A stretch of DNA of 64,000 nt from assembly GCF_018771565.1 (NCBI RefSeq), contig NZ_CP076326.1:372001-436000 (forward strand). Reading direction: 5' to 3'. This document shows positions 31,467 through 35,399 of this stretch, one piece after another. Within the stretch, counting starts at the first letter, position 1, and each line of letters begins with the position of its first letter. This DNA is from Thermoflexus hugenholtzii (GTDB lineage Bacteria; Chloroflexota; Anaerolineae; Thermoflexales; Thermoflexaceae). Position numbers and translations under genes: made by a program. The notes beneath the pieces are model-generated. The model was not told the origin of the DNA. It made no database searches and worked only from the letters and a program-made list of their open reading frames with translations.

Positions 31467-31561
31467 GGTTCGTTAGAGGGAGCCCCTTCTCACGCTCGGA
31501 TTTGCCGTGTGCTCCTCTTTGAACGAAAATGAAAAGCCTGATCCATGGCGGCGAAAGGCTT

Positions 31562-33358
31562 ATGGCGCTCCGGCCGGAGTTCCCTCTGACGATCCAGGCC
31601 GACCGGACGGTCTGGCTGGAGACCCGGCATCCCGGGTATGAGCCGGCCCGGGACGCCCTGGCCCGTTTCGCCGACCTGGAGCGGAGCGCCGGGCCGATCC
31701 ACGTCTACCGCATCACCCCCCTTTCGATCTGGAACGCCGCCGCCCTGGGCCTCACCGCTGCGGAGATCCTGGAGGACCTCGAACGCTTCAGCGGCGGCCA
31801 GGTCCCCGAGGGCTTGCGGGAGGACATCCGGACCTGGATGGCCCGCTACGGCCGGCTCCGCCTGGAGATGGGAAACGGGCGGCTCTGGCTGGTGGCCGAC
31901 GATCCCGCCTTGCTGGCCTGGGTGCGGGCCCAATCCGTGGTGGCCCCCTTCCTGGCCCCCTCCGGGGAGGCGGAGGCGGACCGGGTGGCGGTGGAGCCCC
32001 GGGCCCGCGGCGCCCTCAAGCAGGCCCTCCTCTACCTGGGCTATCCGGTGGAGGATATGGCCGGATACGTGGAGGGCGCCCGCCTGGACCTCCGGTTGCG
32101 GTCCACGTCCCGGACCACCGGCGAGCCCTTCCGCCTGCGCCCCTATCAGGAGGAGGCCGTGGAGGCTTTCCTCCGGGCCGGCAGCGGGGTGATCCTGCTC
32201 CCCTGCGGGGCGGGCAAAACCATCGTGGGCCTGGGGGTCATGGCCCGGCTGCGCACCGCCACCCTGATCATCGCCACCAGCACGGTGGCCGCCCGCCAGT
32301 GGATCACAGAGATCCTGGACAAAACGGATTTGAGCCCCGATCAGGTCGGGGAATACACCGGCCATCGCAAGCAGATCCGTCCGGTCACGGTGGCGACTTA
32401 CCAGATCCTCACCCATCGCCCCCATCGGGATTTCGAAGAGGACCTCCTCCGCCAGTTCCCGCATTTCCGCCTCTTCAGCGCCCTGGACTGGGGGTTGATC
32501 ATCTACGATGAGGTGCATCTCCTGCCGGCCCCGGTCTTCCGCATCACCGCCCAGCTCCAGGCCCGTCGGCGCCTGGGTCTGACGGCCACCCTGGTGCGGG
32601 AGGATGGGCTGGAGCGGGAGGTGTTCGCCCTCATCGGCCCCAAGCGCTACGAGGCCCCCTGGCGGGAGCTGGAGGCCCGGGGCTGGATCGCTGCGGCCGA
32701 GTGCCACGAGATCCGCGTCCCGATGGCCCCGGAGGATCGCCTGCGATATGTGGCCGCGGCGGAAAAGGAGCGCTACCGCCTGGCGGCCACCAACCCGGCC
32801 AAGGAGCCGGTGATCCGCCAGCTCCTCGCCCGGCACGAGGAGGACACCGTCCTCATCATCGGGCAGTATCTGGATCAGCTGGAGCGCATCGCCCGCGCCA
32901 TCCACGCCCCCCTGATCACCGGTCGGACGCCGGTGACGGAGCGGGAGCGGCTCTTCGATCAGCTCCGCCGCGGGGAGATCCGCCGCCTGGTGGTCTCCCG
33001 CGTGGGCAATTTCGCCATCGACCTCCCCGACGCCAACGTGCTGATCCAGGTCTCCGGCACCTTCGGCTCGCGCCAGGAGGAAGCCCAGCGATTGGGACGG
33101 ATCCTGCGGCCCAAGCGGAATGGGATCCTGGCCCACTTCTACACCCTGGTCACCCGCGACACGGTGGATCAGGACTACGCCGCCCGGCGCCAGCTGTTCT
33201 TGGTCGAACAGGGGTATCGCTACGAGATCCTGGAGGCCGAGGAGCTCTCGCATTACCACCCGGCCGTGGTCGATGTCGCCGCCTGGCCTCGGGCCCTCCC
33301 CCCGCAGATGTCCGCCGGGAACGGATCCTCCCCCGATGGATCTGGATCGTCTGCTTGA
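31562..33358 (+). CDS. XPB/Rad25-type DNA helicase (superfamily 2)
   Basis: 598 residues from the preferred ATG; another in-frame ATG stands at 31529. The N-terminal ~185 residues form the damage-recognition-like region. The helicase core shows Walker A LLPCGAGKT at 214-221, DEVH at 316-319, LGLTATLVREDG including the XPB RED motif (346-348), and motif VI EEAQRLGRILRPK. Bacterial XPB proteins are ATP-driven 3'-5' helicases implicated in repair. Its end overlaps by 23 bases the start of a SWIM/Helicase_C_3 gene, a strong sign that the products work together. Confidence 0.95.
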   Translation: MALRPEFPLTIQADRTVWLETRHPGYEPARDALARFADLERSAGPIHVYRITPLSIWNAAALGLTAAEILEDLERFSGGQVPEGLREDIRTWMARYGRLRLEMGNGRLWLVADDPALLAWVRAQSVVAPFLAPSGEAEADRVAVEPRARGALKQALLYLGYPVEDMAGYVEGARLDLRLRSTSRTTGEPFRLRPYQEEAVEAFLRAGSGVILLPCGAGKTIVGLGVMARLRTATLIIATSTVAARQWITEILDKTDLSPDQVGEYTGHRKQIRPVTVATYQILTHRPHRDFEEDLLRQFPHFRLFSALDWGLIIYDEVHLLPAPVFRITAQLQARRRLGLTATLVREDGLEREVFALIGPKRYEAPWRELEARGWIAAAECHEIRVPMAPEDRLRYVAAAEKERYRLAATNPAKEPVIRQLLARHEEDTVLIIGQYLDQLERIARAIHAPLITGRTPVTERERLFDQLRRGEIRRLVVSRVGNFAIDLPDANVLIQVSGTFGSRQEEAQRLGRILRPKRNGILAHFYTLVTRDTVDQDYAARRQLFLVEQGYRYEILEAEELSHYHPAVVDVAAWPRALPPQMSAGNGSSPDGSGSSA

Positions 33359-35399
33359 CCTCCTTCCCCATCCGGTTCGCGTGGAGGCCTTCCGCCTGTG
33401 GGCCTCCGGGGCTGTGCACCTGCGGGCGCTGGATCCGGAGGTGTGGATCGCCGGCATCTCCACGGAGTCGCGAGCGATGGAGACGCGCTGGCGACGTCCG
33501 GGCTCGGAGGAGGCGCTGGCCCCCGAGGCGTTGCGGATCCGGGGTTGCGGATGCCGGTCGGCGAAACCCTGCGCCCACGAAGGGGCGGCCTGGCTGGCCC
33601 TGCTGTTCGATGGGGGAGGGTTGCCCGAGGAGGCGCGGGCGGAGCTCCAACGTCTGGAGGCCCAGCTGGAGCCGCAGACCGCCCTCGAGCTGCTGCGCCT
33701 GGCCCGGCGCCGCCGCTGGGCCCTGCCCCGCGGGCGCAAGCCGGAGCTGGTGCGGCGCCTGGCCGCCCGGCTCAGCGTCTACTACCGGCTGGGGCTGTGG
33801 CGGGAGGAGCTGGACCCGGAGCTGGAGCGCTTGCTCGGGCTGATCCGCCTGCTCGGCAAGGAGCGGGTGGACCCGGAGGAGCTGGAAGCCCGCTGGATGC
33901 GCTGGGCCGAAGGGGATCGCTCGACCTTCCGGGCCGTGTGGCGTCGGGCCATCCAGCAGGGCCTGCTGATCCCCTGCGCCCTGGGCCACGATGGGCGGCC
34001 GCGCCCCCATGCCCATCTGCCGGCCACCCTCCCGCTCTCCAGGCTTCCGCTCCCCGTGTTCCCGGCCACGGTCTATCGCAGCTTTCCTCCTGAACAGACG
34101 GTCGCGGCGCCGCCCCTCCGGCCGCTCCTGGAGGAAGCCCGCCGCTGGTGGGTCCTGCGGCCGCCCGCCCGGATCCTCCGCGTTCATCCCCAGGCGCATC
34201 GCTTTCCCTGGTTATGGGGATGGCCCCACGATCCCGAGGAGGTAGAAGCGCTCCTCGCCCGCCATGCCGGATCGCCCCCTCCCTACGAATGGCTGACGGT
34301 CCCGGCGGAGGAGTTCGATCCCCGCGCCATCGAGGCGCTGGGGGAGCGCATGGGGTTGCCGTGGGAGGGTGCCGCCTTCATCGCCGAGATCCTCTGGCGT
34401 CTCTCCGGCGAGGGCTCGGGGGAAGCGTTCCCCTTCGCTCCGGGCATCGGGGAGGAGGATCCCGTCGCCCGCTGGTGGGAGATCTGGCGGAGCGGGGCGA
34501 CGCGCTTTGAGATCGCCTGGCTTCGACGTCGGGACCCCACGGTCCGGCTGGTGCGATCCCTGGGGTGGATGGGGGGGATCGAGCAGCTTTACTACGAGTG
34601 GGGACGGGGCCGGCAGGCCCTCATCGAGTTGCTGGCCACCCTGCCGGATGAATGGGTGGACTGGACGGATCTGGTCCGGGCGGTGGAGGCCGCCCAGCCG
34701 CCCGGCTTCGCGGAGGACCGGCTGGATCAGCCCTGGCGGTTGGTTCGAGGCCGGCCGGCCCGGGAGCCGGTCCCCGTCGCCGAGCATCTGCGCGCCTATC
34801 TGGAGGGGACGTTGTTCTGGCTGGGGGCGGTGGCCCTGGCGTATGAGGGGGGATCGCTTCGGGCCTTCCGTCTGACCGCTCAGGGGCGTCGCTGGATCCG
34901 GGGAGAGCGCCCTGGGGTGGAGGAGCCGGAGTCGCTTCCGGAGACCCGATGGCTGGACGAGCGGACGTGGTCGGTGCGGCCGGGGCCGGAGGCGGCGCCG
35001 CTGCTCTGGCTTTCGGGTCGGATCGGCCGGCCGATGGGCTCCCCGTTCGTTTTCGCCCTGGACGAGGAGCGCATCGCTGCGGTGTTCCGGGAGGGCTATC
35101 GCCCGGAGGAGATCCTGTCGCGCTTCGAGGCCTGCGGCCTGCCGCCCACGGCCGCGCTGCGAACGGCCCTGGAACGGGTGTGGGACAGCATGCGGCGGGT
35201 CCAGGTGTTTGAGGAGGTCACCATCCTGGAGGCGGAGGACGTGTGGACCCTGCAGGAGCTGCTCGCGGCCACCGGGCTGGGATCGGCCATCCGGGGCTGG
35301 CTCGCCCCCCACATCGTGGTCATCGAGGAGGCCGCCCTCGAGCGGCTGCTGAAAGAGCTCCGGGATCGGGGATATTTCCCCACGGTGGTGGAGGGTTGA
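33336..35399 (+). CDS. SWIM zinc-finger / XPB-Ssl2-like helicase-associated (Helicase_C_3) protein
   Basis: 687 residues with no helicase motifs of its own. Near the N-terminus C71, C73, C79 and H81 (IRGCGCRSAKPCAHEGAA) form a CxCx5CxH SWIM zinc site, a nucleic-acid or protein contact element. The middle is helical and Trp-rich. The last ~200 residues, including SPFVFALDEERIAAVF and LRDRGYFPTVVEG, resemble the XPB/Ssl2 N-terminal or helicase-associated domain seen beside bacterial XPB genes. Start and XPB stop overlap by 23 bases. Inferred role: DNA-binding partner of XPB, in the position that the nuclease Bax1 holds in archaea. No nuclease motif is visible. Confidence 0.85.
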   Translation: MDLDRLLDLLPHPVRVEAFRLWASGAVHLRALDPEVWIAGISTESRAMETRWRRPGSEEALAPEALRIRGCGCRSAKPCAHEGAAWLALLFDGGGLPEEARAELQRLEAQLEPQTALELLRLARRRRWALPRGRKPELVRRLAARLSVYYRLGLWREELDPELERLLGLIRLLGKERVDPEELEARWMRWAEGDRSTFRAVWRRAIQQGLLIPCALGHDGRPRPHAHLPATLPLSRLPLPVFPATVYRSFPPEQTVAAPPLRPLLEEARRWWVLRPPARILRVHPQAHRFPWLWGWPHDPEEVEALLARHAGSPPPYEWLTVPAEEFDPRAIEALGERMGLPWEGAAFIAEILWRLSGEGSGEAFPFAPGIGEEDPVARWWEIWRSGATRFEIAWLRRRDPTVRLVRSLGWMGGIEQLYYEWGRGRQALIELLATLPDEWVDWTDLVRAVEAAQPPGFAEDRLDQPWRLVRGRPAREPVPVAEHLRAYLEGTLFWLGAVALAYEGGSLRAFRLTAQGRRWIRGERPGVEEPESLPETRWLDERTWSVRPGPEAAPLLWLSGRIGRPMGSPFVFALDEERIAAVFREGYRPEEILSRFEACGLPPTAALRTALERVWDSMRRVQVFEEVTILEAEDVWTLQELLAATGLGSAIRGWLAPHIVVIEEAALERLLKELRDRGYFPTVVEG

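Follow-up and report, generated by a model that had tools for sequence, protein, structure and literature searches.

The locus analysed here raises the question of what kind of protein accompanies a bacterial XPB helicase when its partner is not the nuclease Bax1. The window under study is a stretch of 64,000 nucleotides, bases 372001-436000 of the 3.32-Mb single-contig genome of a member of the Chloroflexota, genus Thermoflexus, and the reading of its open frames places an XPB gene and a second gene in tandem on the + strand. A sequence-only reading of this DNA had described the second protein as a SWIM-finger partner taking the place of Bax1. We find that a SWIM-bearing protein that is not a nuclease does indeed replace Bax1 at this locus; it is not, however, an arbitrary SWIM protein, being p52/Tfb2-like in its domain order, its profile matches and its fold.

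A bacterial XPB gene that overlaps its neighbour

The features of the gene pair are as follows.

31562..33358, + strand: XPB helicase gene, 598 aa, with a possible earlier ATG at 31529
31586..31951, + strand: XPB N-terminal domain PF13625, residues 9-130, E 1.7e-33
33336..35399, + strand: p52-like partner gene, 687 aa, ATG at 33336 and stop at 35399
33336..33358, + strand: 23-nt overlap of the partner start with the XPB end, of the same length in five other Thermoflexus genomes

The helicase belongs to the equivalog family NCBIfam NF045503 (repair_heli_XPB), against which it scores 805 bits with a cut-off of 610. It further matches ERCC3_RAD25_C (E 1e-48), Helicase_C_3, ResIII and PF13625 in Pfam, and the XPB chains of the PDB at E 5e-88. 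The 23-base overlap reported in the sequence-only reading holds good and is exactly 23 nt in each of the five other Thermoflexus genomes, across which the partner is 66-67% identical. The dN/dS of the partner in this comparison is ~0.26-0.31, which together with the constant overlap indicates that selection maintains the gene as well as its overlap with XPB. The overlap may serve translational coupling, which would keep the two proteins in step.

Domain make-up of the partner and its likeness to p52/Tfb2

Taken as a single sequence, the window partner has no match in Pfam, NCBIfam or PDB searches, and its domains are seen only through family profiles and predicted fold.

33546..33578, + strand: SWIM-type zinc site CGCRSAKPCAH, residues 71-81, conserved in orthologues
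33669..33791, + strand (approximate): SAP-like region, with SAP, Fan1_SAP and Rho_N matches in relatives and the FAN1 SAP region in a PDB profile search (E 0.003)
33813..34025, + strand (approximate): first winged-helix-like module, from the helix/strand order of the AlphaFold model and the 577-column p52 alignment
34578..34880, + strand (approximate): last winged-helix-like module before the clutch, from predicted models and Foldseek
34956..35201, + strand: clutch-like domain, homologous to the XPB N-terminal domain, from the profile, PF13625 in relatives and Foldseek
35214..35396, + strand: C-terminal module, p8/p52-CTD-like, whose A7 profile ranks Tfb5 first in the PDB (E 0.38-0.61)

Two features proposed from the letters alone, a CxCx5CxH SWIM site and a C-terminal XPB/Ssl2-like domain, are borne out by these comparisons. 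The SWIM site is kept in Thermoflexus orthologues and in several distant relatives; the Pfam SWIM model matches four of 18 relatives and not the window sequence, and the site is an N-terminal addition present only in part of the partner family. PF13625 is found in 17 of the 18 aligned proteins of the window clade, a few of which also have SAP, Fan1_SAP or Rho_N matches, though Pfam misses the window protein alone. The A2 family profile matches the N-terminal domain of yeast Ssl2/XPB in the PDB (residues 147-225, E 0.001), and the C-terminal clutch-like domain of the partner and the N-terminal domain of XPB itself belong to one family, PF13625. A trypsin match of the partner (E 0.15) was dropped as chance.

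By domain order, profile and fold the partner resembles p52/Tfb2 (GTF2H4), the TFIIH subunit that acts with XPB and p8/Tfb5. Both proteins run from winged-helix-like modules through a clutch to a small C-terminal module, and both go with an XPB that bears a PF13625-type N-terminal domain. In the partner, the PF13625 clutch homologous to that domain lies near the C-terminus, and the winged-helix-like modules are predicted to precede it in the same order as in p52. The AlphaFold model (pLDDT 82.9, pTM 0.77) was compared by Foldseek with 350,542 PDB chains, and the first 15 matches are all p52/Tfb2, the best at E 1.1e-5 over 577 columns, with XPB chains ranking after them over ~174 columns. When the C-terminal 273 residues are modelled separately, all of the first 19 matches are p52/Tfb2, among them the p52-p8 crystal. 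TM-scores to p52 are low globally (~0.13 for the whole partner, ~0.25 for the C-terminal part) because the relative placement of the modules differs, so that the support comes from local structure and domain order rather than from one rigid superposition; within p52 itself the orientation of the clutch differs between crystal and cryo-EM structures (PMC7708078).

The likeness extends to sequence in a sister group of the partner, a clade of second-gene paralogues (A3) whose profile matches p52/GTF2H4 chains of the PDB at E 1.7e-6, in an alignment that spans the clutch and extends into the C-terminal domain of p52. Nine of 13 members of this clade have Pfam Tfb2 matches (best 9e-10), and none of the XPBs tested gives one, though they share PF13625. 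The window partner has no match to Tfb2 (PF03849), and the paralogue matches fall below the curated cut-off in every genome searched. The two proteins also differ in that p52/Tfb2 is eukaryotic and lacks the SWIM and SAP-like N-terminus of the bacterial partner, and in that XPB binding, known for p52, would extend to the partner by analogy.

The C-terminal module invites comparison with p8, which shares one fold with the p52 C-terminal domain (PMC7708078). A search of 177,635 PDB sequences with the A7 profile of this module places Tfb5 first and returns it in five of six matches, weakly, at E 0.38-0.61; this rank is not significant alone, but it is the named target that comes first. No Tfb5 match was found for the module in Pfam. 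Matches of the profile to PPR, uS15 and Rpb5 were discarded as chance; they vanish once the GYTPRV tail is trimmed, leaving Tfb5 on top. The module also occurs as a stand-alone gene.

L108:3583-3930, L110:3424-3723 and L129:7759-8088: small gene of 99-115 aa in three Deinococcus species, flanked by XPB and the p52-like gene
L106:3425-3694 and L143:2127-2399: 90-91-aa open frames, directly upstream of the p52-like gene in two Chloroflexota genomes

The Deinococcus proteins have a basic N-terminus, which is KKRGRPPK-type in two species and of a related kind in the third; they are candidate counterparts of p8/Tfb5. The Chloroflexota frames have no ATG and are putative genes.

Co-occurrence with XPB and a proposed regulatory role

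A survey of XPB neighbours in bacteria, which the sequence-only reading had suggested as a check on the pairing, supports it: by far the most XPB-bearing bacterial genomes and plasmid loci that were covered have a family member. Among 151 Chloroflexota genomes, in which XPB was called by a high PF13625 score or the NCBIfam model, a second PF13625 protein is present in all 26 XPB genomes versus 27 of the 125 others (Fisher p 9e-15, uncorrected for kinship, the XPB status of the 125 being taken mainly from the PF13625 score). Two of the 26, G170 and G120, have a divergent or broken XPB, and the linkage counts use the 24 loci without these: the partner adjoins XPB in eight of the 24 and is encoded elsewhere in about two thirds, and it adjoins XPB in all Anaerolineae loci whose surroundings were read. 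Phyla beyond Chloroflexota were sampled through plasmid and secondary-replicon records. Of ten full-length bacterial XPBs on these, nine have a family member no more than 5 kb away (three Deinococcus, Paenibacillus with overlapping genes, Gloeocapsopsis, Arthrobacter, Actinomyces, Tsukamurella and Nonomuraea). No family member is within reach of the Nocardia XPB on such a record, and haloarchaeal XPB-like helicases have no neighbour from the family.

Some of these proteins already carry database names. Those of Deinococcus, Paenibacillus and actinomycetes, like the partner, combine PF13625 with an XPB neighbour and are called 'helicase-associated domain-containing protein', a name derived from that domain alone; the open-licence papers searched give neither a relation to p52 nor a function. 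On a Gloeocapsopsis plasmid, the cyanobacterial gene immediately upstream of XPB (L113:3125-4999), annotated as 'hypothetical protein', likewise encodes a family member.

In TFIIH, XPB is recruited through a pseudo-symmetric dimer of its N-terminal domain, the binding site of the p52 clutch, with that homologous clutch (PMC6422496). The p52/p8 pair activates the XPB ATPase and caps its speed (PMC7708078), and human XPB is insoluble when expressed alone (PMC7672443). Both halves of such a dimer are encoded in the coupled Thermoflexus genes. Gene coupling, domain make-up, the homology of the two domains, the p52-like fold and order, and co-occurrence suggest that an XPB-p52-like regulatory pair also exists in bacteria. 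The partner is, in our judgement, probably a p52/Tfb2-like regulator that docks on XPB and regulates it; we infer physical binding, control of the ATPase and a role in repair. As p52 does in TFIIH, the partner would pair its clutch-like domain with the homologous domain at the N-terminus of XPB, anchoring XPB and tuning its ATPase/translocase, and its own N-terminal SWIM, SAP-like and winged-helix parts would direct the complex either to DNA or to a different protein. Most likely the complex would then pump or open damaged or blocked DNA with no nuclease of its own, handing the cut to another pathway; the repair step is proposed because of the known role of XPB.

Should this be correct, a p52-like partner would account for the weakness of the M. 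tuberculosis XPB, which is active in vitro only in large excess (PMC3353954). The same 2012 study stated that bacterial TFIIH homologues beyond the XPB and XPD helicases had not been identified (PMC3353954), and the open-licence literature that we searched names no bacterial p52 homologue, although a negative search is not proof. What is new here is a p52-like protein beside a bacterial XPB, only XPB and XPD having been reported previously as TFIIH subunits in bacteria. If true, the pair would place part of the TFIIH architecture outside eukaryotes and would offer a small, tractable model of XPB regulation by p52 and p8. Defects in p8 and in XPB cause human disease.

A broader reading, which we put forward tentatively and judge slightly more apt to fail than to hold, is that bacteria possess a proto-TFIIH module of XPB and a p52-like protein, joined in Deinococcus and in some Chloroflexota by a p8-like protein with a gene of its own. 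The eukaryotic XPB-p52-p8 arm would then be a relative of this module, and the window would hold its XPB and p52-like parts, with the SWIM and SAP-like additions as a loading device.

Alternative readings and the contrast with Bax1

The strongest of the alternatives, which we nevertheless consider unlikely, is that the complex of XPB and partner is a transcription-coupled factor acting on stalled RNA polymerase or promoters instead of lesions. Eukaryotic p52 and XPB serve transcription (PMC6422496), and the winged-helix, SAP and Rho_N-like matches would suit such a role. However, no transcription gene is linked to the pair, and the partner is the only neighbour common to XPB loci of different classes; the other XPB neighbours in Chloroflexota (a hydrolase, a thioredoxin, a PMI-like enzyme and a hydantoinase) are not shared between classes.

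Somewhat less likely again is that the partner arose from a copied XPB N-terminal domain and is now an autonomous DNA-binding regulator, with its SWIM, SAP-like and winged-helix parts, that does not bind XPB. Homology of the clutch to the XPB domain could by itself come from domain copying without binding, and many Chloroflexota encode the partner away from XPB. The phylogeny of 44 members of the family, built from homologues gathered from Chloroflexota genomes, bears on this. The window partner falls, with a support of 99, in a clade made up mostly of genes that come first after XPB, and the other clades are the second genes with two PF13625 copies (A3) and short PF13625 proteins. The short clade (L098, L099, L101) also occurs in genomes that have no XPB, and a WYL-like domain forms the end of one relative (L106:3694-6315, E 0.0004, just under the Pfam cut-off), both of which would fit autonomy. 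Against this, the proteins from XPB-less genomes form a clade (support 98) apart from that of the window partner, each XPB genome sampled has a partner, and the 23-nt overlap is conserved. Thermoflexus itself has one member in each clade; besides the window partner these are the double-clutch paralogue (L097:4291-6360) and the short protein (L098:4937-6646), both unlinked to XPB.

We regard it as very improbable that the partner functionally replaces Bax1 as a cryptic nuclease, even though it sits where Bax1 does in archaeal-type loci. The archaeal XPB-Bax1 pair is, like that of Thermoflexus, encoded in an operon in which XPB has a partner gene of its own, but Bax1 is a DUF790 nuclease whose XPB lacks PF13625 and may have XPB_DRD, and the Thermoflexus partner has neither the Bax1 fold, matching p52 instead, nor membership of the Bax1 family. 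DUF790 (PF05626) matches neither the partner nor anything else in the Thermoflexus genome, and Pfam and NCBIfam nuclease families match neither the window partner nor any relative. The sequence-only reading was therefore right that the partner has no visible nuclease motif and that a co-transcribed gene of another kind occupies the place of Bax1. Five Chloroflexota genomes do encode a full-length DUF790 protein (L121-L125), in each case adjoining an XPB without an N-terminal PF13625; XPB_DRD is present in one of the two such XPBs examined with Pfam. The Bax1 genomes also carry a PF13625-type XPB elsewhere, so that one bacterium holds two XPB systems, as in G105, G136, G144, G160 and G165. These are thus separate systems, in which the type of partner tracks that of the XPB N-terminus.

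Membership of an anti-phage defence system is the least credible alternative of all and was rejected: XPB resembles the PbeA helicase models of PADLOC (1e-21), but this similarity is limited to generic helicase regions, the partner has no PADLOC match and no defence genes were found around the pair.

At three Chloroflexota loci p52-like genes are followed by a RecO-type gene (L103:8289-9119, L104:8003-8941 and L100:4407-5177), the identity having been read in L104 and the other two being its homologues; this neighbourhood is a possible link of the p52-like genes to repair.
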